Shown here piece after piece: positions 1 through 39,542 of a stretch of 41,153 bases of DNA. The notes below the pieces were generated by a model that saw only the letters and a list, made by a program, of their open reading frames with translations, did no database searches and had not been told where the DNA came from. A program made the translations under genes and the position numbers. The stretch's first letter is position 1, and each line of letters starts with the position of its first letter. Origin of the DNA: a virus; IMG/VR virus record IMGVR_UViG_3300028025_001978, positions 1 through 41,153 of that record. One strand, 5' to 3'.

Positions 1-337
1 ACCCTCCGCCTCTTTCCCCCTCCCCCCCCCATTTGAATTTGAGAACTTTTTTCTGTGGACAACTAAGTTTGCAGAGGTGCGCTTGTAAGTCGTTGATTTT
101 GCTAGAGATTTCTTGCAACTTACAAACGACTGACGATTTCCATTTAATACAATGTCCATTATGTTAAGTCAAAATCAAAGAAAGCATTACAAACTGGTAG
201 AAACTGAAACGCAAAATTAAACCAGTTGGGACAATTGTGGATAACTTCGATTCAAATCTGTGGATAACCTGTGGATAACTTTTAAATCGGTGATTTTCTG
301 GCTGGTGGGGAGGCGGAGAGGGAAAGAGGCGGAGGGT
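1..337. repeat. Perfect 17-bp inverted repeat, arms 1-17 and 321-337
   Basis: The first 17 bases of the window are the exact reverse complement of 321-337, so the left end could fold back around the DnaA-box region. The second copy keeps the inner arm (33613-33629) but not the outer one, because sequence upstream of its C-tract is unrelated. This may be a real feature of one strain, or a fold-back artefact at a contig end. Confidence 0.6.
236..278 (+). promoter_or_regulatory. Cluster of three DnaA-box sequences, copy 1
   Basis: TGTGGATAA, the complement of the consensus DnaA box TTATCCACA, occurs perfectly at 236-244, 259-267 and 270-278, all in the same orientation. A one-mismatch box, TGTGGACAA, lies at 54-62. 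The second copy has perfect matches at the equivalent three positions, and its counterpart of the weak box is also perfect (33346-33354). Binding of host DnaA is an inference from the match to consensus. Confidence 0.7.
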
Positions 338-386
338 GCATTATTGGGATACTTGATAATGATATTGATTCGCATTTGCAAATATT

Positions 387-436
387 AAAAAAGGCTAGGC
401 AGAACACATAACTGGTAATGCCGCTAGAAAGCCTTT
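387..436 (-). terminator. Possible terminator after the leftward operon
   Basis: Read leftward, AAAGGCT near 436 can pair with AGCCTTT, followed by a run of T (plus-strand A-run 387-392). The intervening loop is long and the inner pairing (GGCA with TGCC) is imperfect. It lies just downstream of the last gene of the operon. The equivalent place in the second copy lacks this structure, so the call is weak. Confidence 0.35.
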
Positions 437-457
437 AAACAGGGCTAGAACAGGTTT

Positions 458-670
458 TTATGCCTTGTCTGTATCCAACCCTAAGAAATCAGATAAATCG
501 TTCTGAGGTCTGTATCCAGCTTCCCATAAAACCGCAAAGGATTCAATGACCACTTTGAACCCTAACGATATGTCACCATCGCCAGCACAAGCAAGGATTG
601 TCCTTTCAGCCTCACCGAGTTGCCGCTGAAAGTATTTGACATTCAAACTGGATGGTCTGCCTTTGCCCAC
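458..670 (-). CDS. Small hypothetical phage protein, copy 1
   Basis: This is a 70-residue protein of unknown function. The frame stays open further upstream, but that extension only overlaps the preceding gene in another frame. The best start is the GTG at 670, one base after the TAG stop of the upstream gene (674-672), with GAGGAAG just ahead of it. The second copy has a GTG at the same place (33952). The conserved core is in the middle (R..L.E..RTIL.CAG.G...GFK, then YRP.NDL.DFLG), while the two ends differ between copies. It is the last gene of the leftward replication operon. Confidence 0.7.
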   Translation of the reverse strand: MGKGRPSSLNVKYFQRQLGEAERTILACAGDGDISLGFKVVIESFAVLWEAGYRPQNDLSDFLGLDTDKA

Positions 671-671
671 C

Positions 672-1310
672 CTACTTCCTCGGTGGCGCATTAAACAACT
701 TAGGTGCTGGCTCACCTTCCAGTACATGAAGATCATCTTCCATATCATCAAACCCAGAGTCACCACCTGTCTTCTTGAACACCTTGACCTGTGCAGTCGG
801 TTCAAGTGCTTTCAGCATAAGAACCTCTTGCACAAATGGGTCAGTTAGGACAACCTCGAACTCCTCCAGTGTCCAGATCGTGTGTAGGTCTTTGCGTTCA
901 CGCTGTAGGTCAAGGCTTTCATTGATGGTCTGGACAACTGCCATGATTTTCCCATCCTGAGTTTTCCACTCCAAAAATCGCAGGGGTGGATTCTGCGAAA
1001 CTCCATTGTCCACTGCCCACTTCTCCAAAGCATCGTATCCCTTGACCATCCCATAGACCGATTTCCGTAACCGATCAATGTCCTTCCTGTCAGTCGCATC
1101 CCAAACCCTCGCCATCTGCACCCAAAACTTCTCCCTAAACTCACTGTCAACTAAAGTAATCAATCTCTCACAACCCCATTTCTGGTGATGTTTGTCTTTC
1201 CTTGCCTCTAGTTCAACCAAAACCGCATGAGCCTGAATATCCCAACTGGTTGGCTCATACCTCTTCACCTCAACTTGAGGAACATCTTTCTTAGACCTTG
1301 AACGACTCAT
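672..1310 (-). CDS. Hypothetical protein of the replication operon, copy 1
   Basis: This 212-residue protein has a basic N-terminus (MSRSRSKKD) and an acidic, proline-containing C-terminus. I do not recognise the family. The start at 1310 is preferred over in-frame starts at 1316 and 1337 because AAGGA sits about eight bases upstream and the second copy begins at the same residue. The counterpart at 33954-34592 is nearly identical in protein, so the gene is under constraint. It lies between the primase-helicase and the small gene at 458, separated from the helicase by a 324-base spacer with a stem-loop, so a replication accessory role is possible but unproven. Confidence 0.75.
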   Translation of the reverse strand: MSRSRSKKDVPQVEVKRYEPTSWDIQAHAVLVELEARKDKHHQKWGCERLITLVDSEFREKFWVQMARVWDATDRKDIDRLRKSVYGMVKGYDALEKWAVDNGVSQNPPLRFLEWKTQDGKIMAVVQTINESLDLQRERKDLHTIWTLEEFEVVLTDPFVQEVLMLKALEPTAQVKVFKKTGGDSGFDDMEDDLHVLEGEPAPKLFNAPPRK

Positions 1311-1634
1311 TTTCATTTTCCTTAAACAAAGCGACAAAGCGACAAAGTGACAGGTGACAAACCCCTTATCATAGATAAGGGGTGGTTTGTCCCCATCTCC
1401 TCGGGTGGGACATTTTTAACTTTGTCCCACTTTGTCTCGTTTGTCACTGTATATCCATACATATCAAATCCTTTCAATCCCATCAAAAACCACGAATTTT
1501 GCCTATTTTTTAAGCAATTGCCTAAAAATTAAGCAACCAGAGACATGGGACAAAGTTCAATTTTAGGTTTGTCCCATGGGGTAAACCCTTAGAAGTCACT
1601 GTATATATATACAACTTTGTCCCTTTGTCCCACT
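1311..1634 (-). other. Spacer with conserved stem-loop and dense GACAAA/TTTGTC repeats, copy 1
   Basis: No gene is seen in this 324-base spacer. It contains a long hairpin: inner arms 1362-1370 and 1374-1382 (CCCCTTATC with GATAAGGGG), outer arms GACAAA 1356-1361 and TTTGTC 1386-1391. About a dozen TTGTC/GACAA motifs occur across the spacer on both strands, and GTCACTGTATAT occurs twice. The second copy (34593-34746) is about half as long but keeps the hairpin with different paired bases. No strong T-run follows the stem, so an RNA processing, attenuation or protein-binding site is as likely as a terminator. Confidence 0.6.
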
Positions 1635-3677
1635 TCAGAACGATTCTGAGTTGCTTTTGAGCCAAACCCAATTGGAGCCAATCACAATCTTATTTGTGGC
1701 TATGAGTCTTTCTCTTGCCCTGACCCAAGCCTTGCGAAAAGCTATTTTGTCCTCTTCAGTACAACCCTTCATGCTCCAAAATTCAGCCCTCCAATCATCC
1801 AAAGCCACTCCATACCGACTAGTACCTTCCACTTCACGATATGAGCCTTTAGCCTTAATCACTTTCATCAACGAATCCATCTCCAAACGCTGATTTCCAC
1901 CACTGCCAGAGTTATTTTTGCTTCCCTTTGCGGTACTGTTTGCGATGTCTTGGTTAGGTCTGATAGCCAAACTGGTCAAGGTTTCAAAGCCCAAGTCCGA
2001 TGTCCCAATCTCCACCAGCACGATCTCAATGCCCATTTCGATGGAGTCAGCCCCATCTTTCTGCTTTGACACCTTCAGAATTGCATTCCCTACCACGCTG
2101 GAATCTCCTGAGTTGATGACGCTATCTTGCCTTTGAATCTCAAGTTCAGTGTCCACCGCACCAAGCAGGGAGCTATGACCACGCAAACCCTTGGAGACAT
2201 CCTTACCGCTATGGTGGATGACCAATAACGCACACTCATAGATTTCCTGTAATTTGCCTGTCTGGGTGATGAATGCACCCATGTCTTCGGAACTGTTCTC
2301 GTTAAAGCCACCACCTGACATCCGCATCAGGGTATCCAAGATGATGAGTTCCAAGGGTTCATCTATCTGAGCCACCAGTTCATTGATTGCGTCAAGGAGT
2401 TCCGCAAAGTCCTCTGGTGACGATCTCAGGTTGAGTTGCGCTCTGATGATGTACAGGTTTGTGCCATCGGGACTCTGATTCTGTATCTTGCAAGCCTTCA
2501 CCCTTGCGCCCATACCGCCATGACCCTCACCGCAAATGTATAGAACTGCACCCTTTTTAGGTATCCTGTAACCCATCCATTCCCGACCTGTGGCTATCGC
2601 CTCAGCCAAGTCGAGGGCAATGAATGACTTGTATGAGGCTGGCGGTGCGTAGAGAGCTACAAATGCCTTCTTAGGCAATATCGACTCGACAAGCCACTCA
2701 ACTGGTTCATCCTTGATGGAGTCCCAAGACTCGACAACGAGCTTCTTCCTTTGCGACTCACTAGGTTGATGATCTACTTTGGGTTCATTGTTGTGGCTTA
2801 ACAGGTCATCAATTGCTGATTCAATTAGCCTTTTGGGTATCAGGATGACATCTTCAGCAGTCAATGGCTGAGACTTCTTGGCTTTGCTTGCCAGTATTTC
2901 CTTTGTGCCTGAATACTTGTATACAAACTCGAAAGCATCTTCCTTTGGCTTTGGCAACTCTAAATCAATAATCCTGATGCTCTTGACCACTGAAAGCAAA
3001 GACTGAACGATCTTGTCTGCATAACCCCAACCAGCGGCATCATTGTCAGGCACTACAACGACATTTGCGCCAGCAAAGTATTGGTTCAGGTCTTGATTCC
3101 AACCTCCTGCACCAGCGTGTGAGGTGGTGGATACGACACCCAAACTGCACAAGGCATCTGCCGCCTTTTCACCCTCACAGATGTATATTGCTCTTCCCTC
3201 GGCAACCGCCTGTTGCACTTCGGGCAATCTGTAAGGCACGATTCTGCAATCTCCCAACTTCCCTATCCGAGTGCCATCAGCCATGACTCTGAGAGTCTTA
3301 TAGGTCTTACCTTTGGCATCAAAGGTCTTGTAGCGTTGCTTGAGGAATAGGGGTAACTCGTTCTCGTCTGTATAGACCCATTCATTCTCTAGGATTGGTA
3401 TTGCTGGCATGATAGGTCTGACATTAGATAAATATTCTGGTCTGTCTGGTAGCTGTGGGAGGAGTCCCATGTCCTTGATGGTGCTGAACACTGCTGACTG
3501 CTCACACCCACCATGACACTTAAAGAGTATGTTGCCATCCTCACCATCTGTCACTGAGAGGGATGGATTCTTGTCTCCATTGCCCTGACCATGATGAGGA
3601 ACAGGACAACTTGCTAGGTAACCATTGCCTACCTTTTTTGCATTACCCAAGGTAGTGGCTATTTGTTGTGCTGACAT
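1635..3677 (-). CDS. Primase-helicase (zinc finger, TOPRIM, RepA-type ATPase), copy 1
   Basis: This 680-residue replication protein is predicted to prime and unwind DNA at the fork. Its domains in order are a zinc-binding N-terminus (C24, H28/H29, C54, C58), a TOPRIM primase core (E168-G-E170 and D211-N-D213), and a RecA-like ATPase of the RepA/AAA_25 type. The ATPase has a Walker A motif at 344-351 (APPASYKS), CGEG at 382-385, Walker B ending at D448, and a VIHHSGKD segment near 485. A small basic C-terminal domain follows. Phage primase-helicases of this build recruit host polymerase, and no phage polymerase is visible here. There is no strong ribosome site before the ATG at 3677. The gene follows a terminator (3701-3733), so it may have its own weak promoter or depend on readthrough. 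Confidence 0.9.
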   Translation of the reverse strand: MSAQQIATTLGNAKKVGNGYLASCPVPHHGQGNGDKNPSLSVTDGEDGNILFKCHGGCEQSAVFSTIKDMGLLPQLPDRPEYLSNVRPIMPAIPILENEWVYTDENELPLFLKQRYKTFDAKGKTYKTLRVMADGTRIGKLGDCRIVPYRLPEVQQAVAEGRAIYICEGEKAADALCSLGVVSTTSHAGAGGWNQDLNQYFAGANVVVVPDNDAAGWGYADKIVQSLLSVVKSIRIIDLELPKPKEDAFEFVYKYSGTKEILASKAKKSQPLTAEDVILIPKRLIESAIDDLLSHNNEPKVDHQPSESQRKKLVVESWDSIKDEPVEWLVESILPKKAFVALYAPPASYKSFIALDLAEAIATGREWMGYRIPKKGAVLYICGEGHGGMGARVKACKIQNQSPDGTNLYIIRAQLNLRSSPEDFAELLDAINELVAQIDEPLELIILDTLMRMSGGGFNENSSEDMGAFITQTGKLQEIYECALLVIHHSGKDVSKGLRGHSSLLGAVDTELEIQRQDSVINSGDSSVVGNAILKVSKQKDGADSIEMGIEIVLVEIGTSDLGFETLTSLAIRPNQDIANSTAKGSKNNSGSGGNQRLEMDSLMKVIKAKGSYREVEGTSRYGVALDDWRAEFWSMKGCTEEDKIAFRKAWVRARERLIATNKIVIGSNWVWLKSNSESF

Positions 3678-3700
3678 TGAGAGTCCAATTTACAAGAGAC

Positions 3701-3733
3701 AAAAAAACCAGAGTTCTCCCCCGAAAACTCTGG
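3701..3733 (-). terminator. Rho-independent terminator after the SSB-like gene, copy 1
   Basis: Read leftward, CCAGAGTT (3733-3726) pairs with AACTCTGG (3715-3708) across a G-rich loop and is followed by seven T (3707-3701). It lies 18 bases past the SSB-like stop and 23 bases before the primase-helicase start, so it divides the leftward operon. The second copy has the same stem at 36813-36845. Confidence 0.85.
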
Positions 3734-3751
3734 TGCGGATTGGTTCAGTGA

Positions 3752-4336
3752 TTAGCTGAACATCTCATCATCACTCATTGATGGTGCGGGCTTGCTAGGT
3801 GCGGGCTTGGCTACTGGTGCTGGAACTTGAGTTGTAGGCACTTGAACATATTCTTCTGCACCACCTGACAATGCCGCTGGTCTTGCTACCCAACTCACCA
3901 CCTCAAACAATGGCACTCGTGTAGTTCCCTTGCCGACCTTCTCAGGGCGTGAACCCTTGTACTCGACAACTGGCAACTTGCCAGCGTTAGCAGATGCCTG
4001 TGCTTGCACTTGCTTCCAGAGAGCCTCTAAGCCCATGTTAGCCCCTGCACCGTTGGCACTAAATTCGGCAACCCCCATCTTTTTGTTAAAGAAAGTTGCA
4101 CGAAAGCCACGCTTATGATCTGCACTTGGCTGTGCGCCTTTCTGACCCAGACTTCCATCAGGCAAGAATTCAAAGATGCCAGTTGCAATCAGCATCCAAC
4201 CTGTTTCCAAGTTCTCATAGTCAAAGACCGACTTCTCAAAGGTGAACTCACCATCTTGGTTAGTCCATGCGTTTGCTTGCGGTGAAAAGCGGATGTAGTT
4301 ACCACTACCACCGCCATTTGAAAGGTTTAAGTTCAT
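3752..4336 (-). CDS. Putative single-stranded DNA-binding protein, copy 1
   Basis: This 194-residue protein has a glycine-rich N-terminus, a compact beta-rich body and a proline/alanine-rich linker ending in an acidic tail, SDDEMFS. That tail resembles the DDxxxF tip by which SSB proteins bind partners. The region after residue 155 differs most from the second copy, as expected for a flexible linker, while the tail is conserved. AAGGA lies eight bases before the ATG. The position between the nuclease and the primase-helicase supports a ssDNA-binding role. No catalytic motif is seen. The assignment rests on tail and context, not on a recognised OB-fold signature. Confidence 0.6.
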   Translation of the reverse strand: MNLNLSNGGGSGNYIRFSPQANAWTNQDGEFTFEKSVFDYENLETGWMLIATGIFEFLPDGSLGQKGAQPSADHKRGFRATFFNKKMGVAEFSANGAGANMGLEALWKQVQAQASANAGKLPVVEYKGSRPEKVGKGTTRVPLFEVVSWVARPAALSGGAEEYVQVPTTQVPAPVAKPAPSKPAPSMSDDEMFS

Positions 4337-4372
4337 TTGATGTTTCCTTGTTTAAAGTTAAAGTTGAAAAAT

Positions 4373-4386
4373 GTGACAGATGTCAC
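4373..4386. promoter_or_regulatory. Palindrome in the spacer before the SSB-like gene
   Basis: GTGACA and TGTCAC form a perfect 6-bp dyad with a 2-base spacer, 36 bases upstream of the SSB-like start. The second copy (37485-37498) keeps a 5-bp dyad at the same place. It could be an operator or an RNA hairpin. No clear -35/-10 pair accompanies it. Confidence 0.4.
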
Positions 4387-4407
4387 TGTGGGGGATTGGG
4401 GTTGGGA

Positions 4408-5496
4408 TTATTGACTAATACCCTTGTCTCTGGCAAGCGTCAATCCTGAAGATATGCGGGAAGTTAAAGGTTCAATGGTTTCCTTTAATCCTTTAGGCAA
4501 TAGTTTCTCTGCCTGTGCAGGGGTGATGAGTTCGGTCTTCGTTATCTCTTTGATGCCCATGCCAAGGAACATGAGATGCTTCATCGCTTCTTCTTCTGAT
4601 GTCCAAGACCTCAACGCTCTCTTAGGTGCGAGTTGCCATCCAGCAATCACCGCACCCTTTTCCATGCGTTTAAGGGCATGATCTCTCACCGCCTTGATGT
4701 AGTCCTCAACCATGTCGAACTTGGTCAGCAAGACGCTGATCTGCTCCTCTGTCAGCACCTCTACTGGTGGTGCTGTATGCACAACCTCGACCATGTTTGC
4801 TTGTGCAGGGCAAATCGTTTTAGCCGAACAGTATTGGCAAGCAGAGTCGCTAGGCACAGGAGGGAATGCAGGGTTCAGCACATTCTCAATCGCAGGGGTC
4901 AGGATGTAATGCTCCCAATCAACCAACTCTTGAGTTGTCATTGAGTGCTTGCGTACCTCACCATGATGAGGCTGGATAATCCAGAGTTCGATGGTGTCGA
5001 TGTCTTGGTAAAGACCTTCAGACTCCATAGCCGCCAATGCGTAGAGCTTCAACTGCTCACTTTCAGCATCAACATACCCTCTACCAGTTTTCAGATCAGC
5101 AATGATGAGTTTGCGTTTCTCTTTGCTAATGCCTATGACATCAGCAGTGCCACCAATCTTGTATGCAGGAGATTCTTGGTAGGGTAGGAATTGCTCAACC
5201 GATACAGTTCCCTCACCCAACTCTTCCTCTATGTCCCAGATGGCTTTCAGATGCTGTTGTGCAAAGTCGCAATTCTCTTGAGTCATCAAGATACCTTCAT
5301 AGACCTTGCCAACAAACCACATGGGGTCTAAATCCCTTTGATAGCAATGCTCTGCCAGTGCATGAATTGCAGTACCAATCTTTGCCGCCTCACCACTTTC
5401 CACATAAGGAACTTGTGCTGATAGCCTGACGCTTGCAGGGCAAGCAATTGTTCTACCGATACCTGATGGTCTGATGTTCAGTTGCTTTGTTGCCAT
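4408..5496 (-). CDS. Cas4-like PD-(D/E)XK nuclease (DUF2800-type), copy 1
   Basis: This 362-residue nuclease is expected to degrade DNA ends for recombination. The nuclease core shows GTAIHALAEH (H45), D119 in GGTADV, and D134-L-K136 in IADLKTG, followed by a Q-L-K-L-Y helix (148-152). One cysteine near the N-terminus (C19) and three later ones (C220, C223, C229) match the spacing of a Cas4/AddB-type 4Fe-4S cluster. This arrangement is known from the DUF2800 phage family. It overlaps the upstream small gene by 19 bases, so translation is probably coupled. RuvC-like and SSB-like neighbours support a recombination function. Confidence 0.8.
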   Translation of the reverse strand: MATKQLNIRPSGIGRTIACPASVRLSAQVPYVESGEAAKIGTAIHALAEHCYQRDLDPMWFVGKVYEGILMTQENCDFAQQHLKAIWDIEEELGEGTVSVEQFLPYQESPAYKIGGTADVIGISKEKRKLIIADLKTGRGYVDAESEQLKLYALAAMESEGLYQDIDTIELWIIQPHHGEVRKHSMTTQELVDWEHYILTPAIENVLNPAFPPVPSDSACQYCSAKTICPAQANMVEVVHTAPPVEVLTEEQISVLLTKFDMVEDYIKAVRDHALKRMEKGAVIAGWQLAPKRALRSWTSEEEAMKHLMFLGMGIKEITKTELITPAQAEKLLPKGLKETIEPLTSRISSGLTLARDKGISQ

Positions 5497-5702
5497 GATG
5501 ATCTTTCAATGTGGTGATGTTCAATGAGTAGTTGGTAGGCGAGTTGTCTGACCTCGTGAGATACCGCATGACCTAAGTCCTCTGGGTCAAGCAAACGCTT
5601 GAGGTAAACCACAGTTGCTTGGTTCTGCTTTCTTTCTTGTTCGAGTTGAGAGCCAAGCCAGACAATGTGCTCACGCAAAGTCTCTCGTTCTTTGTTATCC
5701 AT
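5478..5702 (-). CDS. Small hypothetical, coiled-coil-like protein, copy 1
   Basis: This 74-residue, charged, probably helical protein of unknown function starts MDNKERETLREHIVWLGSQ. The ATG at 5702 is preferred to an in-frame ATG at 5723, because a G-rich ribosome site (GGGGG) lies between them and the second copy agrees. It overlaps the RuvC-like gene by 8 bases and the nuclease gene by 19, so it sits in a translationally coupled string. Confidence 0.7.
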   Translation of the reverse strand: MDNKERETLREHIVWLGSQLEQERKQNQATVVYLKRLLDPEDLGHAVSHEVRQLAYQLLIEHHHIERSSWQQSN

Positions 5703-6168
5703 TGCGATACCCCCAAAGTGCAATCAAACTGGCATCTGATCTGCCATCATCCTTGACCCTCTTAAAGAGACTCATGTGCTCTGGAAATAACTCCATTGCT
5801 CTGGCTCTTGAGCCATCCTTGCCACCAATGACACCCATCGACTTAATCCAAGTCTGTGGGGTCATCATGGTGGTCTTTATCTGTAGGGCTGTGAGGACAC
5901 CTTCAACGACCCCCAGACTGCGCCCCAGAGAAAAGACGGAAGTCACCCCTTGCCCACTCATGGCAAATACCTTTTCGGTGAATGCCTCGTTGGGGTCAAA
6001 TTCCTTGACGATCTGAACCAACTCAGGCACTGACACCTGACGCTTGTTCTTGCCGTTTCGGGTGAGGGTGACTGTAGGCATATCCTCAACCTTGACCAGT
6101 TCCCCATCGACTATGAGGGCAAGAGCACCACTCAAGCCGCAATCAATACCAATGGTGCGCCTAGTCAT
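5695..6168 (-). CDS. RuvC-like Holliday junction resolvase, copy 1
   Basis: This 157-residue protein of the RNase H-fold RuvC type should cut four-way junctions made during replication and recombination. Acidic residues that fit a RuvC active site are D9 (IGIDCG), E65 (FTEKVF), and D141 and D145 near the C-terminus (DDGRSDASLIALWG). The length fits small RuvC-type resolvases. It overlaps the HTH regulator by 8 bases upstream. It differs at only five residues from the second copy, none in these motifs. Confidence 0.85.
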   Translation of the reverse strand: MTRRTIGIDCGLSGALALIVDGELVKVEDMPTVTLTRNGKNKRQVSVPELVQIVKEFDPNEAFTEKVFAMSGQGVTSVFSLGRSLGVVEGVLTALQIKTTMMTPQTWIKSMGVIGGKDGSRARAMELFPEHMSLFKRVKDDGRSDASLIALWGYRNG

Positions 6169-6391
6169 TTAACAGCCCCTGTAGAGCCTTAAAACGGCTC
6201 TGAATCAGGGAATCTACCGATTCATCTAACCGCCTGATGGTGGTGACAAGTGGTATGGTTTTACCTGTGGCATATCTGGAGACTTGAGCAGGGTGAAAGC
6301 CAGCATGACGAGCTACATCAGTGATGGTGTAGCCAGCTACTTCAGCCTTTTCCTTAATGTTTTCAATGGTTTGCATGGTTTGTGTGTTCAT
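6161..6391 (-). CDS. Cro/CI-like HTH regulator, near-leaderless, copy 1
   Basis: This 76-residue DNA-binding protein has a clear helix-turn-helix (TITDVARHAGFHPAQVSRYA, about residues 22-41). I start it at the ATG at 6391. An upstream TTG at 6430 lies inside the promoter -35 box, and the 13 extra codons differ between copies whereas the 76 residues from 6391 are identical. The -10 box ends ten bases before this ATG, so the mRNA has almost no leader, as for lambda cI from PRM. It is the first gene of the leftward replication operon. A palindrome overlaps its -10 box, suggesting autoregulation. Confidence 0.8.
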   Translation of the reverse strand: MNTQTMQTIENIKEKAEVAGYTITDVARHAGFHPAQVSRYATGKTIPLVTTIRRLDESVDSLIQSRFKALQGLLND

Positions 6392-6401
6392 AGTGTGGGC
6401 G

Positions 6402-6430
6402 AGTCTAGAGACTTTTAATCCATTGGTCAA
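6402..6430 (-). promoter_or_regulatory. Leftward promoter with overlapping operator, copy 1
   Basis: On the minus strand TTGACC (6430-6425), a 17-base spacer and TAGACT (6407-6402) form a sigma70-type promoter. AGTCT and AGACT arms (6402-6413, 2-base spacer) make a dyad covering the -10 box. In the second copy the same element is a perfect 12-bp palindrome. Likely control is by the HTH protein encoded just downstream. Confidence 0.75.
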
Positions 6431-6483
6431 GCCCTTTGTGATTTAATAGTTGAGTGGATTGTGGGGGATTAGTTACAGGGTAG

Positions 6484-6511
6484 TTGACAAGGTAGTTAAC
6501 CTGTATATGAT
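6484..6511 (+). promoter_or_regulatory. Rightward early promoter, copy 1
   Basis: TTGACA (6484-6489), a 16-base spacer and TATGAT (6506-6511) form a near-consensus sigma70 promoter 41 bases before the first rightward gene. GGTAGTT occurs twice with a 12-base period around the -35 (6479-6497). The second copy keeps both hexamers and the 16-base spacing, but changes the right half of the spacer. Confidence 0.8.
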
Positions 6512-6551
6512 TAGAACCTTGACAACAACGAACTTAAAAGGAAACTTCAAA

Positions 6552-6932
6552 ATGAACACAACTTACCAAGCATATGTAGCCTCCGATTTGTATCAAGCTG
6601 GTATTGCTTGCGATGGTCACCCTTTCATCGCTGAGAAGTATTTTGTCTTGATTGAGAATGCGGCTGGTAGACGCTTTCGTCATGAGAAATCTTTTGCTGG
6701 AGTAGAAGTCGTGGAGTGTGAAGAAACTGGCGAGGTTAATTTTGCCGATATTCGTGAGACTGCCAAGGCAATCGTTGAAGATTTAGCCGCCAAAGTTAAT
6801 GTGGCTTTGGCATCAGGTAAAGCCTTGACAGCATCTTGCTGGTTTGAAGTCGATCCAGCTTACGGCTCTGACGCTTATATCAATCAAGGTACAGAGTCAA
6901 AGCGTCTTTTTGAAGAGAAGTTAGCCGCCTAA
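6552..6932 (+). CDS. First rightward early protein, unknown function
   Basis: This 126-residue protein is acidic, with no recognised motif. The start at 6552 follows AAAAGGAAAC at normal spacing, although the frame is open further upstream through the promoter. The second copy has an unrelated 68-residue gene in exactly this slot, between the same promoter and the same 46-base boundary sequence. The slot is therefore an exchangeable early-gene position, where host-takeover or anti-defence genes are often found. That role is inference. Confidence 0.75.
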   Translation: MNTTYQAYVASDLYQAGIACDGHPFIAEKYFVLIENAAGRRFRHEKSFAGVEVVECEETGEVNFADIRETAKAIVEDLAAKVNVALASGKALTASCWFEVDPAYGSDAYINQGTESKRLFEEKLAA

Positions 6933-6937
6933 TCAAC

Positions 6938-6983
6938 CCAAAGGGGCGCAAGCCCCATCTTTCAACCTAACAGGAGAATTGAA
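6938..6983 (+). other. 46-base conserved boundary sequence with GNRA-loop hairpin, copy 1
   Basis: This stretch is identical in the second copy (39865-39910), although the genes on both sides differ. It holds a hairpin GGGGC-GCAA-GCCCC (6943-6956, a GNRA-type tetraloop) and ends with the ribosome site AGGAGA for the next gene. A short identical block between unlike genes is a good recombination boundary. The hairpin could also act on mRNA stability or as an attenuator. Confidence 0.7.
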
Positions 6984-6984
6984 A

Positions 6985-7245
6985 ATGAAATGCAAAGGTC
7001 AAGGTAAAAAAGAATATGTAGTTGTCATCAAAGAAGATGATGGCTCTAAGCGAGTGTTTTCTCACCCTGTCACCGAAAAATCTGCGGTGTTTATGATTCT
7101 TGGTTCTTCATTGCCATTGGATTATGTAGCCATTCGCCACATTGAAGAACTTGGCATCAAGTCCAATAAGCCTTGGACACACAATGCACCATACAACCCT
7201 CAATTCCTTGGCGCACAGCCAGCAAGAGTTGGAGAAGATTACTGA
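6985..7245 (+). CDS. Small early protein with exchanged N-terminal part
   Basis: This is an 86-residue protein of unknown function. ATG at 6985 lies seven bases after AGGAGA, and a TTG at 6979 is too close to that site. The last 24 residues (from PWTHNAPYN to the end) match the gene at 39912-40184 almost exactly, while the N-terminal 60 or so do not. The C-terminal piece is thus a shared tail on two different bodies. The stop overlaps the next start (TGATG). Confidence 0.7.
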   Translation: MKCKGQGKKEYVVVIKEDDGSKRVFSHPVTEKSAVFMILGSSLPLDYVAIRHIEELGIKSNKPWTHNAPYNPQFLGAQPARVGEDY

Positions 7246-7400
7246 TGTACCCAATTGACGATTCAGAAGCAGAGGAGATCAAAGCGGAGGCTCGTCTGGA
7301 AAGACGCTACCGCTTTCAACTGCTCAACCACCCCGACTGCCGTGACCCCGACCACCCAACCTGTGAACTCTGTAACGAGGAGAATGATGATGACGCTTAA
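7245..7400 (+). CDS. Small zinc-ribbon-like early protein, copy 1
   Basis: This 51-residue protein ends in an H-x2-C-x4-H-x2-C-x2-C cluster (HPDCRDPDHPTCELC), which could bind zinc. It starts on TGATG overlap with the preceding stop. The acidic N-terminus (MYPIDDSEAEEIK) and the cluster are shared with 40184-40348, while the middle differs. Function is unknown. Confidence 0.7.
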   Translation: MYPIDDSEAEEIKAEARLERRYRFQLLNHPDCRDPDHPTCELCNEENDDDA

Positions 7401-7482
7401 AGAAATATTCCAAGCCACCCTAGTGGGATTGATTCTGTCTGTGCCTTTCCTGATTGAGATTGCAAAGGAGTTAGTGAAATGA
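7390..7482 (+). CDS. 30-residue single-pass membrane protein, copy 1
   Basis: The sequence starts MTLKEIFQATLVGLILSVPF and continues as one hydrophobic helix followed by a short charged end. Three tandem ATG codons occur at 7384-7392. The last is chosen because GAGGAG lies seven bases before it and the second copy starts there without the others. Only one residue differs between copies (S17 to A). The stop overlaps the next start as ATGA. Function is unknown. A membrane-acting early micropeptide is plausible. Confidence 0.7.
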   Translation: MTLKEIFQATLVGLILSVPFLIEIAKELVK

Positions 7483-7730
7483 CACCACTCCAAGACTTCT
7501 GCCAAGAGCCTCGCACTATGGAAGACCTTGTAGAGGCAGGGTTCAAACCTAACAGCGTCTATAGCGCAGTCAAAAAGGGTGAACTCAAGAACATCAAGGC
7601 AACTGATGATTGGGGGCGCAGAACGCATGGTAAGGGCTTATTCCTCTCAACAGTCACCATTGCACCCATGAACTTCACCGCCTTGCAACACGCATGGAAT
7701 TCACCACAACCACAAGGAGAGACAACATGA
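7479..7730 (+). CDS. Small early protein, possibly DNA-binding, copy 1
   Basis: This 83-residue protein has a predicted helical N-terminal half (DLVEAGFKPNSVYSAVKKGE), reminiscent of a winged-helix or HTH turn, then a GRRTHGKGLF turn and a strand-rich end. I cannot name a family. It is coupled on both sides by ATGA overlaps. The second copy (40660-40911) differs at few residues. Confidence 0.7.
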   Translation: MTPLQDFCQEPRTMEDLVEAGFKPNSVYSAVKKGELKNIKATDDWGRRTHGKGLFLSTVTIAPMNFTALQHAWNSPQPQGETT

Positions 7731-7990
7731 GCATCGAAAAAGAACTTGAAGAACTCATCACCAAGATTGCGCCATCCAAAGACATCGCTGGCGGCTTTAT
7801 GAGTCGTGACCAGATCATCCAACTCATCCGCAAGGTGGCAACTGAGGCATCCCTGATTGGGTACTGCCACGCTGAGAAGTTGACCAGAGAACGCATGGAA
7901 AAGAAACTGAAGATGGTTGAACAGGAACTCACCATCATCAAAGAAGAACTCAAAGACGCTGAGTTGGAACTGATTGCGTCAGCAAAATGA
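7727..7990 (+). CDS. Coiled-coil early protein, copy 1
   Basis: This 87-residue protein has a charged C-terminal coiled coil (about 50-85, rich in E/K heptads). It starts at 7727, four bases before the end of the previous gene (ATGA). An in-frame ATG at 7694 lies within that gene and has no ribosome site. The counterpart at 40908 runs off the end of the window. Function is unknown. Confidence 0.75.
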   Translation: MSIEKELEELITKIAPSKDIAGGFMSRDQIIQLIRKVATEASLIGYCHAEKLTRERMEKKLKMVEQELTIIKEELKDAELELIASAK

Positions 7991-33148: not shown

Positions 33149-33715
33149 GATTGTCCTTAGCGTTGTGGGCGTGATAGGGGTGGACTATAGCAAATTGTGT
33201 GTTGATAGTCTTCTTTTTTTTCGTAGCGGATAGTGGGGCATTGGCATTTTTCTATTTTCGTTTTTTCGGTGAGTCGGAGGCTCCCACAATTTTCACCGAC
33301 AGCGACCACCCCCTCCCCCCCATCAAAAATTTGAGAACTTTTTTCTGTGGATAACTCCGTTTGCAGATATGCGCCTGTAAGTGCTTGATTTTCCTAGACA
33401 TTTTCTGTAACTTACAAATCGCTGACAAAATCCATTTAATACAATCTCCATTATGTTAAGTCAAAATCAAAGAAAGCATTACAAACTGGTAGAAACTGAA
33501 ACGCAAAATTAAACCAGTTGGGACAATTGTGGATAACTTCTATCCAAATCTGTGGATAACCTGTGGATAACTTTTGAATCGGTGATTTTCTGGCTGGCGG
33601 GGAGGCGGAGAGGGAAAGAGGCGGAGGGTGCATTATTGGGGTACTTGATAATGATATTGATTCGCATTTACAAATCGTAACCAAGGCTAACAAGGGCATC
33701 AAGCTAACAATACCT
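33149..33715. other. Non-coding region upstream of the terminase, with origin-like elements, copy 2
   Basis: No gene is seen in 567 bases. 33149-33300 has no counterpart in copy 1. It is AT-rich around 33195-33265 and has a dyad TCGGTGA/TCACCGA enclosing GGAG/CTCC between about 33268 and 33300. From 33308 it parallels 16-457: C-tract, DnaA boxes, TGTAAGT/ACTTACA dyad (33376-33382, 33410-33416) and the purine block. In the leftward reading this region lies between the replication operon and the terminase genes, so it should also hold any promoter for the late block. I could not define one securely. Confidence 0.6.
33528..33570 (+). promoter_or_regulatory. Cluster of three DnaA-box sequences, copy 2
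   Basis: TGTGGATAA occurs perfectly at 33528-33536, 33551-33559 and 33562-33570, with a fourth perfect box at 33346-33354. Spacing between the three clustered boxes is the same as in copy 1, while the flanking bases vary, which argues that the boxes themselves are conserved. Confidence 0.7.
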
Positions 33716-33952
33716 CTAATCCTCGTCAGAATCGCTTTTAACAGGGGTTTGTAGCATTTCCTCATCCACCCCAAGGAAATCGTATAAATCGTTTCTAGGG
33801 CGGTATCCAAGCCGCCATAAGATTGCGTAGCAATCCAAGACCTCCTTGAAGCCTTTGGTAATGTTTCCCTTGCCAGCACACAACAGGATTGTCCTTTGTT
33901 CCTCAGTCAGCTTGCGCCTGAACTGGACAGTGTGAAGTTGTGGACTTGCCAC
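33716..33952 (-). CDS. Small hypothetical phage protein, copy 2
   Basis: This 78-residue counterpart of 458-670 starts at the GTG at 33952, next to the upstream stop. The core (RTIL.CAG.G, YRP.NDL.DFLG) is kept. The N-terminus and an acidic C-terminal extension (VKSDSDED) differ, making it eight residues longer. Function is unknown. Confidence 0.7.
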   Translation of the reverse strand: MASPQLHTVQFRRKLTEEQRTILLCAGKGNITKGFKEVLDCYAILWRLGYRPRNDLYDFLGVDEEMLQTPVKSDSDED

Positions 33953-33953
33953 C

Positions 33954-34592
33954 CTACTTCCTCGGTGGTGCGTTAAACAGTTTAGGTGCTGGCTCACCTT
34001 CCAGTACATGAAGATCATCTTCCATGTCATCAAACCCAGAGTCACCACCTGTCTTCTTAAACATCTTGACCTGTGCAGTCGGTTCAAGTGCCTTCAGCAT
34101 GAGAACCTCTTGCACAAATGGGTCAGCTAGGACAACCTCAAACTCCTCCAGTGTCCAGATCGTGTGTAGGTCTTTGCGTTCACGCTGTAGGTCAAGGCTT
34201 TCATTGATGGTCTGGACAACTGCCATGATTTTCCCATCCTGAGTTTTCCACTCCAAAAATCGCAGAGGTGGATTTTGAGGCACTCCATTGTCTTCAGCCC
34301 ACTTCTCCAAAGCGTCATAACCTTTGACCATCCCATAGACCGACTTCCTCAACCGATCGATGTCCTTCCTATCAGTTGCATCCCAAACCCTAGCCATCTG
34401 CACCCAAAACTTCTCCCTAAACTCAGTGTCAACTAAAGTAATCAGTCTCTCACAACCCCATTTCTGGTGATGTTTGTCTTTCCTTGCCTCGAGTTCAACC
34501 AAAACCGCATGAGCTTGAATATCCCAACTGGTTGGCTCATACCTCTTCACCTCAACTTGAGGAACATCTTTCTTAGACCTTAAACGACTCAT
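33954..34592 (-). CDS. Hypothetical protein of the replication operon, copy 2
   Basis: This is a 212-residue counterpart of 672-1310 with a handful of substitutions and the same length. The ATG at 34592 follows GAAGGAAATT. No upstream in-frame start is available here, which settles the start for both copies. Function is unknown. Confidence 0.75.
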   Translation of the reverse strand: MSRLRSKKDVPQVEVKRYEPTSWDIQAHAVLVELEARKDKHHQKWGCERLITLVDTEFREKFWVQMARVWDATDRKDIDRLRKSVYGMVKGYDALEKWAEDNGVPQNPPLRFLEWKTQDGKIMAVVQTINESLDLQRERKDLHTIWTLEEFEVVLADPFVQEVLMLKALEPTAQVKMFKKTGGDSGFDDMEDDLHVLEGEPAPKLFNAPPRK

Positions 34593-34746
34593 TTTTAATT
34601 TCCTTCAACAAAAAGACAAAGAGACAAACCGACAGGGGACAAACCTCAGGTTTATAGACCTGAGGTGGTTTGTCCCCATCTCCTCAAGGGGACATTTGGG
34701 ACATTTGTCCCCGTTTGTCCCCTTTGTCACTGGATAAATATACATA
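34593..34746 (-). other. Spacer with conserved stem-loop, copy 2
   Basis: This 154-base spacer has a hairpin with inner arms CCTCAGGT (34644-34651) and ACCTGAGG (34658-34665). The outer arms are GACAAA (34638-34643) and TTTGTC (34669-34674). The inner arms are different bases from copy 1 but still pair, and the outer arms are the same. Several more GACAAA and TTTGTCCCC motifs flank it. About 170 bases present in copy 1 are missing. Confidence 0.6.
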
Positions 34747-36789
34747 TCAAAAACTCTCCGAATTGGACTTCAACCACACCCAACCAGACCCAATCACGAC
34801 CTTATTCACGGCTACCAATCTCTCCCTAGCCCGCATCCAAGCCTTCTTAAAAGCCGCCTTATCATCCTCAGTACAACCCTTCATGCTCCAAAATTCAGCC
34901 CTCCAATCATCCAAAGCCACTCCATACCGACTAATACCTTCCACTTCACGATATGAGCCTTTAGCCTTAATCACTTTCATTAACGAATCCATCTCCAAAC
35001 GCTGATTTCCACCACTGCCAGAGTTATTTTTACTCCCCTTTGCGGTACTGTTTGCGATGTCTTGGTTAGGTCTGATAGCCAAACTGGTCAAGGTTTCAAA
35101 GCCTAAGTCTGATGTCCCAATCTCCACCAGAACGATCTCAATACCCACTTCGATGGAGTCAGCCCCATCCTTTTGCTTTGACACCTTCAGGATTGCGTTC
35201 CCTACCACGCTGGAATCTCCTGAGTTGATGACGCTATCTTGCCTTTGAATCTCAAGTTCAGTGTCCACCGCACCAAGCAGGGAGCTATGACCACGCAAAC
35301 CCTTGGAGACATCCTTACCGCTATGGTGGATGACCAACAACGCACACTCAAAGATTTCCTGTAGCTTGCCTGTCTGGGTGATGAATGCGCCCATGTCTTC
35401 GGAACTGTTCTCGTTAAAGCCACCACCAGACATCCTCATCAGGGTGTCAAGGATGATGAGTTCCAAGGGTTCATCTATTTGCGCCACCAATTCGTTGATA
35501 GCGTCTAAAAGTTCCGCAAAATCCTCTGGTGACGATCTCAGGTTGAGTTGCGCCCTGATGATGTACAGGTTTGTCCCATCGGGACTCTGGTTCTGTATCT
35601 TGCAAGCCTTCACCCTTGCGCCCATACCGCCATGACCTTCACCACAGATATACAGCACCGCACCCTTTTTGGGTATCTTGTAACCCATCCAATCCCTACC
35701 AGTTGCAATTGCCTCTGCCAAGTCGAGGGCAATGAATGACTTATATGATGCTGGCGGTGCGTAGAGAGCTACAAATGCCTTCTTGGGCAGTATCGACTCA
35801 ACCAACCATTCAACTGGCTCATCCTTGATTGAGTCCCAAGACTCGACAACGAGCTTTTTCCTTTGCGACTCACTAGGTTGATGCTCTACTTTGGGTTCAT
35901 TGTTGTGGCTTAACAGGTCATCAATTGCTGATTCAATTAGCCTTTTGGGTATCAGGATGACATCTTCAGGGGTCAAAGGCTGAGACTTCTTGGCTTTGCT
36001 TGCCAGTATTTCCTTTGTGCCTGAGTATTTGTGGACAAACTCATGTGCATCTTCCTTTGGCTTTGGCAACTCAAGATCAATAATCCTGATGCTTTTGACC
36101 ACTGAAAGCAAAGACTGAACGATCTTGTCTGCATAACCCCAACCAGCGGCATCATTGTCTGGCACGACAACGACATTTGCGCCAGCAAAGTACTGGTTCA
36201 GGTCTTGATTCCAACCTCCTGCACCAGCGTGCGAGGTGGTGGCTACGACTCCCAAACTGCACAAGGCATCTGCCGCTTTTTCACCCTCACAGATGTATAT
36301 TGCTCTTCCCTCGGCAACTGCCTGTTGCACCTCGGGCAGTCTGTAAGGCACGATTCTGCAATCTCCCAACTTCCCGACCCGACTGCCATCAGCCATGACT
36401 CTGAGAGTCTTATAGGTCTTACCCTTGGCATCAAAGGTCTTGTAGCGTTGCTTAAGGAACAGCGGTGTTTCGTTCTCGTCTGTGTAGACCCATTCATTCT
36501 CTAATATTGGTATTGCTGGCATGATGGGTCTGACATTTGAAAGGTATTCTGGTCTGTCTGGTAGCTGTGGGAGGAGTCCCATGTCCTTGATGGTGCTGAA
36601 CACTGCTGACTGCTCGCACCCACCATGACACTTGAAGAGTATGTTGCCATCCTCACCATCTGTGACCGATAGGGATGGATTCTTGTCCCCATTGCCCTGA
36701 CCATGATGAGGAACAGGACAACTTGCTAGGTAACCATTGCCTACCTTCTTTGCGTTACCCAAGGTAGTGGCTATTTGTTGTGCTGACAT
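34747..36789 (-). CDS. Primase-helicase, copy 2
   Basis: This 680-residue protein has the same length as 1635-3677 and all motifs intact: zinc site C24/H28/C54/C58, TOPRIM E168/E170 and D211/D213, Walker A 344-351, Walker B D448. Substitutions are few and lie mainly in linkers (about 245-305) and the C-terminal 40 residues. Both copies therefore look functional. Two full helicase genes in one phage genome would be unusual. Confidence 0.9.
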   Translation of the reverse strand: MSAQQIATTLGNAKKVGNGYLASCPVPHHGQGNGDKNPSLSVTDGEDGNILFKCHGGCEQSAVFSTIKDMGLLPQLPDRPEYLSNVRPIMPAIPILENEWVYTDENETPLFLKQRYKTFDAKGKTYKTLRVMADGSRVGKLGDCRIVPYRLPEVQQAVAEGRAIYICEGEKAADALCSLGVVATTSHAGAGGWNQDLNQYFAGANVVVVPDNDAAGWGYADKIVQSLLSVVKSIRIIDLELPKPKEDAHEFVHKYSGTKEILASKAKKSQPLTPEDVILIPKRLIESAIDDLLSHNNEPKVEHQPSESQRKKLVVESWDSIKDEPVEWLVESILPKKAFVALYAPPASYKSFIALDLAEAIATGRDWMGYKIPKKGAVLYICGEGHGGMGARVKACKIQNQSPDGTNLYIIRAQLNLRSSPEDFAELLDAINELVAQIDEPLELIILDTLMRMSGGGFNENSSEDMGAFITQTGKLQEIFECALLVIHHSGKDVSKGLRGHSSLLGAVDTELEIQRQDSVINSGDSSVVGNAILKVSKQKDGADSIEVGIEIVLVEIGTSDLGFETLTSLAIRPNQDIANSTAKGSKNNSGSGGNQRLEMDSLMKVIKAKGSYREVEGISRYGVALDDWRAEFWSMKGCTEDDKAAFKKAWMRARERLVAVNKVVIGSGWVWLKSNSESF

Positions 36790-36812
36790 TTAGAGTCCAA
36801 TTTACAAGAGAC

Positions 36813-36845
36813 AAAAAAACCAGAGTTCTCCCCCGAAAACTCTGG
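36813..36845 (-). terminator. Rho-independent terminator after the SSB-like gene, copy 2
   Basis: The stem (36845-36838 with 36827-36820) and seven-T tail (36819-36813) match copy 1, and the loop is also the same. It separates the SSB-like gene from the primase-helicase. Confidence 0.85.
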
Positions 36846-36863
36846 TGCGGATTGGTTCAGTAT

Positions 36864-37448
36864 TTAGCTGAACATCTCATCATCACTTTGTGAGGGTGGT
36901 GCTGGTTTGCTAGGTGCGGGTTTAGCAATTATCTTTGGCGCATCAAATGATGAGGTTGACTCATCAGCACCGCCATCTTGCAAAGCCGCTGGTCGTGCTA
37001 CCCAACTCACCACCTCAAACAATGGCACTCGTGTAGTTCCCTTGCCGACCTTCTCAGGGCGTGAACCCTTGTACTCGACCACTGGCAACTTACCAGCGTT
37101 AGCAGATGCCTGTGCTTGCACTTGCTTCCACAAGGCTTCCAAGCCCATGTTAGCCCCTGCACCATTGGCACTGAACTCTGCGACACCCATAGTCTTGTTG
37201 TAGAAAGTTGCCCGAAAGCCACGCTTGTGCTCTGCACTTGGCTGTGCGCCTTTCTGCCCAAGACTGCCATCAGGCAAGAATTCAAAGATGCCAGTGGCTA
37301 TCAGCATCCAACCTGTTTCCAAGTTCTCATGGTCAAAGACTGATTTCTCAAAGGTGAATTCACCATCTTGGTTAGTCCATGCATTTGCTTGCGGTGAAAA
37401 GCGAATGTAGTTACCACTACCACCGCCAGAGGAGAGATTTAAATTCAT
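36864..37448 (-). CDS. Putative single-stranded DNA-binding protein, copy 2
   Basis: This is a 194-residue counterpart of 3752-4336. The body is nearly the same and the acidic tail (SDDEMFS) is kept. The linker at about 155-185 is clearly different in sequence (GGADESTSSFDAPKI against GGAEEYVQVPTTQVP) at equal length. Conserved tip and drifting linker is the pattern expected for an SSB. Confidence 0.6.
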   Translation of the reverse strand: MNLNLSSGGGSGNYIRFSPQANAWTNQDGEFTFEKSVFDHENLETGWMLIATGIFEFLPDGSLGQKGAQPSAEHKRGFRATFYNKTMGVAEFSANGAGANMGLEALWKQVQAQASANAGKLPVVEYKGSRPEKVGKGTTRVPLFEVVSWVARPAALQDGGADESTSSFDAPKIIAKPAPSKPAPPSQSDDEMFS

Positions 37449-37484
37449 TTGATGTTTCCTTTTTGAAAGTTAAAGTTGAAAAAT

Positions 37485-37498
37485 GTGACTGATGTCAC
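37485..37498. promoter_or_regulatory. Palindrome before the SSB-like gene, copy 2
   Basis: GTGAC and GTCAC arms with a four-base spacer lie 36 bases upstream of the SSB-like start, the same place as the 6-bp dyad in copy 1. One arm base has changed without compensation, which weakens a strict structural role. Confidence 0.35.
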
Positions 37499-37519
37499 TG
37501 TGGGGGATTGGGGTTGGGA

Positions 37520-38608
37520 TTATTGACTAATACCCTTGTCTCTGGCAAGCGTCAATCCGCTAGATATGCGAGAAGTTAAAGGTTCAATGGACTCCTTTAA
37601 GCCTTTAGGCAATAGTTTCTCTGCCTGTGCAGGGGTGATGAGTTCGGTCTTCGTTATCTCTTTGATGCCCATACCAAGGAACATGAGATGCTTCATCGCT
37701 TCTTCCTCTGATGTCCAAGACCTTAACGCTCTTTTAGGTGCGAGTTGCCATCCAGCAATTACAGCACCTTTCTCCATGCGTTTCAAAGCATGATCTCTCA
37801 CCGCCTTGATGTAGTCCTCAACCATGTCAAACTTGGTCAGCAAGACACTGATCTGCTCTTCTGTCAAGACTTCAACTGGTGGTGCAGAGTGAACCACCTC
37901 AACCATGTTTGCTTGTGCAGGGCAAATCGTTTTAGCCGAACAGTATTGACAAGCAGAGTCAGAGGGTACAGGAGGGAATGCAGGGTTCAGCACATTCTCA
38001 ATCGCAGGGGTCAGTATGTAATGCTCCCAATCCACCAACTCTTGAGTTGTCATCGTGTGCTTGCGTACCTCACCATGATGGGGTTGGATAATCCAGAGTT
38101 CAATGGTGTCGATGTCTTGGTACAGCCCACCAGACTCCATAGCCGCCAAACTGTATAGCTTGAGTTGATCTGATTCGGCATCGACATACCCTCTACCAGT
38201 TTTTAAGTCAGCAATGATGAGCTTGCGTTTCTCATTACTAATGCCTATGACATCAGCAGTTCCACCAATCTTGTATGCAGGGCTTTCTTGGTAGGGTAGG
38301 AACTTCTCGACCTGAACAGTTCCCTTGCCCAACTCTTCCTCTATGTCCCAAATAGCTTTCAAGTGCTGTTGTGCAAAGTCGCAATTCTCTTGAGTCATCA
38401 AGATGCTTTCATAGACTTTGCCAACGAACCACATGGGGTCTAAATCCCTTTGATAGCAGTGCTCTGCCAAGGCATGAATTGCAGTCCCGATCTTTGCCGC
38501 CTCACCACTCTCGACATAAGGTACTTGTGCTGATAACCTGACACTTGCAGGGCAAGCAATTGTCCTAGCAATACCTGATGGTCTGATGTTCAGTTGCTTT
38601 GTTGCCAT
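37520..38608 (-). CDS. Cas4-like PD-(D/E)XK nuclease, copy 2
   Basis: This is a 362-residue counterpart of 4408-5496 with the catalytic D119, D134 and K136 and the cysteines C19, C220, C223 and C229 all kept. Differences are scattered and conservative (for example E95 to K, S99 to Q). It overlaps the upstream small gene by 19 bases, as in copy 1. Confidence 0.8.
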   Translation of the reverse strand: MATKQLNIRPSGIARTIACPASVRLSAQVPYVESGEAAKIGTAIHALAEHCYQRDLDPMWFVGKVYESILMTQENCDFAQQHLKAIWDIEEELGKGTVQVEKFLPYQESPAYKIGGTADVIGISNEKRKLIIADLKTGRGYVDAESDQLKLYSLAAMESGGLYQDIDTIELWIIQPHHGEVRKHTMTTQELVDWEHYILTPAIENVLNPAFPPVPSDSACQYCSAKTICPAQANMVEVVHSAPPVEVLTEEQISVLLTKFDMVEDYIKAVRDHALKRMEKGAVIAGWQLAPKRALRSWTSEEEAMKHLMFLGMGIKEITKTELITPAQAEKLLPKGLKESIEPLTSRISSGLTLARDKGISQ

Positions 38609-38814
38609 GATGTTCTTTCGATGTGGTGATGTTCAATCAGTAATTGATAGGCGAGTTGTCTGACCTCATGCGACACCGCATGACCTAAGTCCTCTGGGTC
38701 AAGTAGACGCTTAAGGTAAACCACAGTCGCTTGGTTCTGCTTTCGTTCTTGTTCGAGTTGAGAGCCAAGCCAGACAATATGCTCACGCAAGGTTTCTCGT
38801 TCTTTGTTATCCAT
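38590..38814 (-). CDS. Small hypothetical, coiled-coil-like protein, copy 2
   Basis: This 74-residue counterpart of 5478-5702 differs at one residue near the end (S to T). It starts at the ATG at 38814 after a G-rich ribosome site. Function is unknown. Confidence 0.7.
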   Translation of the reverse strand: MDNKERETLREHIVWLGSQLEQERKQNQATVVYLKRLLDPEDLGHAVSHEVRQLAYQLLIEHHHIERTSWQQSN

Positions 38815-39280
38815 TCCTATACCCCCAAAGTGCAATCAAACTGGCATCCGATCTGCCATCATCCTTGACCCTCTTAAAGAGGCTCATGTGTTCAGGGAAC
38901 AACTCCATCGCTCTGGCTCTTGACCCATCCTTGCCACCAACAACACCCATTGCCTTAATCCAAGTCTGTGGGGTCATCATCGTGGTCTTGATTTGTAGGG
39001 CTGTGAGAACTCCCTCAACGACACCAAGACTGCGCCCTAGAGAGAAGACTGAAGTCACCCCTTGCCCACTCATAGCGAACACTTTTTCGGTGAATGCCTC
39101 GTTGGGGTCAAAGTCCTTGATGATCTGAACCAACTCAGGCACTGATACCTGACGCTTGTTCTTGCCGTTTCGGGTGAGGGTGACTGTAGGCATATCCTCA
39201 ACCTTGACCAGTTCACCATCCACAATCAGGGCTAGAGCACCATTCAGACCACAGTCAATGCCAATGGTGCGCCTAGTCAT
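38807..39280 (-). CDS. RuvC-like Holliday junction resolvase, copy 2
   Basis: This is a 157-residue counterpart of 5695-6168 with five substitutions (positions 13, 54, 56, 110, 114). D9, E65, D141 and D145 are kept, so it should be active. Confidence 0.85.
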   Translation of the reverse strand: MTRRTIGIDCGLNGALALIVDGELVKVEDMPTVTLTRNGKNKRQVSVPELVQIIKDFDPNEAFTEKVFAMSGQGVTSVFSLGRSLGVVEGVLTALQIKTTMMTPQTWIKAMGVVGGKDGSRARAMELFPEHMSLFKRVKDDGRSDASLIALWGYRNG

Positions 39281-39503
39281 TTAACAGCCCCTGTAGAGCC
39301 TTAAAACGGCTCTGAATCAGGGAATCTACTGATTCATCCAACCGCCTGATGGTGGTGACAAGTGGTATGGTTTTACCTGTTGCATATCTGGAGACTTGAG
39401 CAGGGTGAAAGCCAGCATGACGAGCAACATCGGTGATGGTGTAGCCAGCTACTTCAGCCTTTTCCTTAATGTTTTCAATGGTTTGCATGGTTTGTGTGTT
39501 CAT
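39273..39503 (-). CDS. Cro/CI-like HTH regulator, near-leaderless, copy 2
   Basis: From the ATG at 39503 the 76 residues are identical to copy 1, while the bases upstream, which would encode extra residues from a TTG at 39542, have changed. Complete protein identity means both copies encode the same DNA-binding specificity. The two phages or modules would be homoimmune if this is the immunity repressor. Confidence 0.8.
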   Translation of the reverse strand: MNTQTMQTIENIKEKAEVAGYTITDVARHAGFHPAQVSRYATGKTIPLVTTIRRLDESVDSLIQSRFKALQGLLND

Positions 39504-39513
39504 AGTGTGGGGG

Positions 39514-39542
39514 AGTCTATAGACTTTTAATTCATTGGTCAA
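39514..39542 (-). promoter_or_regulatory. Leftward promoter with perfect palindromic operator, copy 2
   Basis: TTGACC (39542-39537), a 17-base spacer and TAGACT (39519-39514) form the promoter. AGTCTATAGACT (39514-39525) is a perfect 12-bp palindrome over the -10 box. The ATG of the regulator lies ten bases downstream of the -10. Confidence 0.75.

Follow-up and report, generated by a model that had tools for sequence, protein, structure and literature searches.

Phage regions for host takeover and counter-defence lie in the first genes past an early promoter, which are small, exchanged rapidly and of unknown function. For another kind of phage locus, PeSL, the acronym is said to stand for promoter early stem-loop, a term reportedly found in the work of Arbiol et al. 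from 2010, and the title of a paper by Comeau et al. from 2014 is said to refer to promoter-terminator motifs. According to one account, PeSL cassettes in T4-type phages place a stem-loop beside small early genes of unknown function and are said to mediate gene shuffling between related phages (PMC4503421). More generally, phage mosaicism has been attributed to relaxed homologous recombination by phage recombinases, with short stretches of higher identity on either side of the mosaic pieces (PMC3945230).

Here, we analyzed a viral stretch of 41,153 nucleotides (IMG/VR record IMGVR_UViG_3300028025_001978; hereafter the window), together with its relatives. The data very probably describe an early-gene cassette locus with exchangeable slot genes, breakpoints that fall at the -10 element and the hairpin/linker, and a hairpin fold that is conserved irrespective of its sequence, from which we infer a recombination route, a role in mRNA and a host-directed function. 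In the arrangement that we propose, slot A would lie 3' of the main rightward early promoter, a cassette would comprise a gene, its own leader and a GC-rich hairpin, and a promoterless linker (CUUUCAACCUNNNAGGAGAAUUGAA) would then give a ribosome site to either a slot B cassette or the conserved operon.

The closest known parallel of this locus is the T4-type PeSL, with which it shares a stem-loop at the boundary of shuffled early genes, here in 54 of 57 occupied slots. Unlike the present locus, the PeSL as described has a promoter that adjoins the stem-loop and drives the next gene, whereas the joint analyzed here holds a ribosome-site leader only. Moreover, PeSLs are present as many dispersed copies in hyperplastic regions of a T4-type backbone, whereas here a single locus per genome, with at most three tandem cassettes (L186), resides in a podovirus-like phage of ~33 kb with SU10-type adaptor, portal and terminase, and a second boundary is situated inside a coding tail. 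Because the joint carries no promoter, there is one site per genome and the phage is of another type, the locus works similarly to a PeSL but is not one.

In the first copy of the locus, the left-hand anchor is a divergent HTH regulator (HTH_3/HTH_31; 6161-6391, minus strand), adjoined by the core gene for the RuvC-like Holliday junction resolvase (5695-6168, minus strand). On the plus strand, a sigma70-like early promoter (TTGACA-N16-TATGAT, 11 of 12 consensus positions; 6484-6511), whose -10 is the left edge of the exchanged unit, precedes a slot A gene for a hypothetical protein of 126 aa (6552-6932), the distant relatives of which are small hypothetical genes in large phages. The 46-base linker block (6938-6983) follows, composed of an RNA hairpin, CUUUCAACC and the ribosome-binding site of the next gene. 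The GNRA-loop hairpin that had been predicted within the block was found as GGGGC-GCAA-GCCCC (6943-6956), 10 nt past the gene A stop, where relatives have alternative stems or loops. The slot B gene (86 aa; 6985-7245) bears a constant C-terminal tail (NAPYNPQFLGAQPARVGEDY, codons 7183-7242) common to unrelated slot B proteins, and its stop overlaps the start (TGATG) of a conserved downstream gene of 51 aa (7245-7400), which is followed by a conserved gene for a hydrophobic protein of 31 aa (7387-7482) and by the conserved core gene p83 (83 aa; 7479-7730), the right-hand anchor.

The second copy, likewise on the plus strand, comprises the early promoter (39596-39623), a slot A gene of 68 aa (39658-39864), the linker block (39865-39910) and a slot B gene of 90 aa (39912-40184), the N-terminal part of which is unrelated to that of copy 1 and the C-terminal tail identical in kind (codons 40122-40181). 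It carries one more inserted gene of 83 aa (40323-40574), which is absent from copy 1 and which other phages carry as a slot B gene with the tail attached (109 aa). The original prediction, made from the window alone, was that a conserved promoter and an identical 46-base block enclose unrelated first genes in the two copies, and each of its elements was recovered: the promoter is conserved in both, the block (CCAAAGGGGCGCAAGCCCCATCTTTCAACCTAACAGGAGAATTGAA) is the same letter for letter, and the 126-aa and 68-aa proteins have no BLASTP similarity to each other. No third occurrence of the block was detected anywhere in the window, and the 17-nt hairpin core had two matches there at up to 3 mismatches, compared to 0.06 expected. 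The proposed swap of the first early gene stood; a point missed in that prediction is that the slot B genes differ too (86 versus 90 aa), apart from the shared C-terminal tail.

The two copies themselves call for a different description. The two ends of the window, 16-7972 and 33309-41153, show 85-96% identity over an alignment of 8 kb, with an offset of ~33.1 kb. Related genomes are 30-35 kb long with one such locus apiece, and the adjacent core gene p83 had exactly one copy in seven of ten relatives tested (26-37 kb) and none in the other three. Because the relatives carry one locus each and the window ends align in this manner, we read the 41 kb contig as exceeding one genome length and the apparent copies as alleles of a single locus from two strains, brought together in assembly. 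A duplication inside one genome was ruled out, since relatives possess one locus. Gene counts taken from this record would therefore come out inflated.

Scanning IMG/VR with RuvC, p83 and the block itself yielded about 70 unique loci, all on metagenomic contigs, among which some chimeras are possible. The block itself, or a different GC hairpin occupying its position, followed the first early gene at about 75 related junctions, with many unrelated genes flanking it on both sides; this is the outcome that the search of related phages, suggested beforehand as a check, had been expected to give. Slot A, the first gene 3' of the promoter, was occupied by one small gene, sometimes two, each with its own 5' leader, and its content fell into about 20 families of 58-209 aa, whereas slot B, 3' of the linker, held members of over a dozen families or was empty. 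Four contigs from a single metagenome (3300020042) carried four different slot A families. Several families were seen on both sides of hairpins (63-71 aa MKYKLN, 73 aa MTKIYK, 130 aa MNYKHN/MKYKHN and 49 aa MTKREI), the maximum number of cassettes in tandem was three (L186), and direct-repeat-like leaders flanked some cassettes on both sides. In addition, the typical 5' leader of the 126-aa family (TATGATTAGAACCTTGACAACAACGAACTTAAAGG) precedes a different gene (MYATQYEEH...) in L163 (3300042894_000330), and leader and gene are therefore separable.

Since all slot A proteins are small, and some of their families are homologous to genes in later slots, they might represent highly diverged forms of one protein. 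We regard this as very unlikely, in view of the missing BLASTP similarity between the two window proteins, the range in length across families, the presence of outside relatives particular to several families, and predicted strand/helix orders that differ between the two window proteins in low-confidence AlphaFold2 models (mean pLDDT 50 and 62, shallow alignments).

Exchange of these families was evaluated on a tree of RuvC from 49 loci. The slot A family required 37 changes, compared to a mean of 37.9 after shuffling and a possible minimum of 17, and slot B 28 changes compared to 35.7. Clusters of p83, which is located beyond the slots and was used as control, required 3 changes when divided into 4 states (possible minimum 3) and 11 changes when divided into 11 states (25.8 after shuffling); p83 follows the tree, and the RuvC tree is therefore informative there. 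Slot A content is statistically independent of core phylogeny, whereas p83 tracks it. Of the 105 pairs sharing a family, 48 had a gene A identity that exceeded that of the core by 10 points or more, as exemplified by L008/L052 (100% for gene A, 68% for RuvC) and L017/L202 (97.4% versus 58.9% for the core). In the alignments, left breakpoints were located in the promoter spacer or -10 and right breakpoints where the hairpin ends, beyond the linker, or at the ATG of the next gene, so that the breakpoints of recent swaps fall at the block edges, in line with the exchange initially proposed. The reverse case was encountered in L040/L047, where the two phages differ in gene A and in the hairpin and match from the linker onwards, through gene B.

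Different early genes could also have been joined to the block by assemblers through repeat collapse, as might be suggested by the window itself, which runs longer than a genome and unites alleles of two strains. This is nevertheless highly improbable: about 70 contigs, drawn from many independent metagenomes, obey the same rule, lineage-specific downstream genes follow the swapped genes, identical cassettes recur across samples, p83, lying past the slots, is consistent with RuvC, and the 46-base repeat is shorter than a typical read.

At the joint itself, a GC hairpin was present 3-15 nt past the stop in 54 of 57 occupied slots that had been picked by their anchors, regardless of the hairpin. 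The three exceptions comprise L124, with a second gene before the hairpin, L118, in which the first gene was skipped by the gene caller, and L126, a true exception. The hairpin is missing from loci with nothing in slot A (L093, L104, L114 and L076). An independent scan via the 126-aa gene A family, blind to hairpin and anchors, returned 28 distinct loci, of which 24 had a hairpin. Among 65 distinct junctions measured (66 folded), its distance from the stop was 5-11 nt; this set is partly hairpin-selected, and the anchor-selected 54/57 is the fair figure. Stems are interchanged (GGGGC/GCCCC, GGAGGC/GCCUCC, GGGGG/CCCCC), and the loops include GCAA, GAAA, GAGA, UUCG, CACG, UUUG, UUGC, CAUAGA, UACG and others. 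Because the fold stays while its letters change, and a recombination sequence acting as DNA only would need no fold, the hairpin, as judged from these sequences, functions at least in part as RNA, beyond any recombination role.

Unlike an intrinsic terminator, the GC hairpin is followed by only a weak U-run (3-4 U in the next 8 nt), and it was not called by a terminator scan of the plus strand. Nor did a promoter scan find any promoter in the gap of ~30 nt between the hairpin and the next ATG, the only one being 5' of the first gene. The minimum free energy of the 76-nt junction was unexceptional relative to dinucleotide shuffles (z -0.78), and no matching family was found in Rfam. A second stem around the ribosome site (UUUCAA/UUGAAA) was considered and found to be unsupported, its arms being nearly invariant and the pairing being broken in L161. 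At the L094/L034 junction, the hairpin occurs as its reverse complement (GGGGCUUGCGCCCC), with the stem retained and the loop flipped. In mRNA, such a hairpin may act as a weak terminator, a 3'-end protector or an insulator, and with it any gene could be inserted with its neighbours left undisturbed.

An RNA role of this kind raises the possibility that the block is merely an RNA and ribosome-site element under selection, with illegitimate recombination occurring anywhere, only the junctions at the block surviving, and the block itself promoting nothing. We give this reading somewhat less than an even chance. It would agree with the retention of the fold while the sequence is replaced, with the presence of the hairpin even next to a different linker type and with the variety of tetraloops across wider phages. 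However, in 1,162 locus pairs in which both flanking genes are unrelated, the linker 3' of the hairpin retains a mean identity of 92% over 21 positions, compared to 28% in the 60 nt on either side, which goes beyond the need of a hairpin and a ribosome site, and several recent exchanges keep identity across the whole block to the next ATG (L049/L056).

The hairpin could instead be mainly a recombination signal for a site-specific enzyme in the manner of integron cassettes, as the hairpin at one end of each cassette, the tandem array in L186 and the direct-repeat-like leaders around some cassettes might suggest. This is hardly credible, given that integron arrays combine an integrase with an attC-type site, whereas no integrase or transposase was found among the window proteins scanned, that the stem and loop letters vary to an extent which a site-specific recombinase is unlikely to tolerate, and that the 5' breakpoints lie in the promoter rather than in a second hairpin.

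In the preferred cassette model, the exchange machinery is likely relaxed homologous recombination by phage recombinases, as suggested by two enzymes encoded in the window: a PD-(D/E)XK exonuclease (DUF2800/phrog_69; 4408-5496, minus strand), which is a candidate recombination enzyme, and the RuvC-like resolvase. Co-infecting phages would pair through homologous sequence in the promoter region at one end and in the linker at the other end, and would recombine with the help of the phage exonuclease. The raised-identity flanks and the presence of both enzymes are shared with mosaicism by relaxed recombination; unlike in the latter, the boundaries are fixed here at one RNA-structured linker and not at scattered homology. 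None of the window proteins was identified as an annealing recombinase. In the distant lineage L140, a 193-aa protein encoded just upstream of p83 is, by resemblance, a candidate Erf-type annealing protein. Adjoining the exonuclease gene is a conserved gene of 194 aa (3752-4336, minus strand), whose product has an acidic tip (DDEMFS) at its end and is perhaps a candidate single-strand binding protein; it had no database match, and a PDB sequence search gave nothing meaningful.

Alongside these enzymes, the window proteins include a primase-helicase, portal, terminase, capsid, SU10-type adaptor, tail proteins and a spanin. The phage belongs to an uncultivated group of small tailed, podovirus-like phages of ~33 kb. 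Cultured phages showed no DNA match to window positions 1-24000 and only distant protein matches (portal, primase). The linker had zero occurrences in 84,980 bacterial and archaeal genomes, in which RuvC relatives reached at most 46% identity.

A second, coding joint, absent from the original prediction, is formed by the tail of the slot B proteins. The constant 20 residues (YNxxFLGAQPARxGxDY) terminate slot B proteins whose N-terminal parts fall into about nine unrelated families and, among the loci fetched, were found only at this locus. Three families exist in both forms, without and with the tail: MNANQS (69 and 92 aa), MTLIDLH (83 and 109 aa) and MRVTHL (65 and 89 aa). Synonymous changes in the tail codons far outnumber non-synonymous ones (pS 0.51, pN 0.11, pN/pS 0.21), and the tail peptide itself is therefore under purifying selection. 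We tentatively suggest, as a possibility that we hold with some doubt, a plug-in expression site with two standard joints, one of RNA (hairpin, linker and ribosome site) and one of protein (the in-frame tail), in which the tail would give the interchangeable early effectors a shared address or a tag for binding a partner.

Regarding the swapped genes, no slot gene matched Pfam at the cut-off, all PHROG matches were of unknown function, and PADLOC returned a single weak and partial match (REase_II, E 0.003) for a 149-aa family; there was no convincing match to a defence or counter-defence family in PADLOC, Pfam or PHROG. A distant relative of the 126-aa protein is encoded in Pseudomonas phage Astolliot, in a small-gene array close to the end of its genome. 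The 209-aa slot A family (L003, L060 and L112) has relatives in Roseobacter phages, in rhizobial phages and in many phages of Klebsiella and Vibrio; those listed with the best scores are all hypothetical. A PDB sequence search with the 130-aa protein gave nothing meaningful. In position, small size and fast exchange, the slot genes resemble takeover and counter-defence regions, unlike which they matched no known anti-defence family. A role as host-directed early accessory functions, for example in takeover or counter-defence, is a plausible guess from position and turnover.

Overall, the locus represents a compact and quantifiable case of gene-by-gene phage modularity, in which the slot is independent of core phylogeny and the core gene beyond the slots is not. 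It makes two long-standing questions testable, namely what sets mosaic boundaries and whether transcript structure defines exchange units. The tail common to unrelated proteins suggests a shared target, and the about 20 families of first-expressed small proteins constitute a catalogue to screen for takeover or counter-defence activity.
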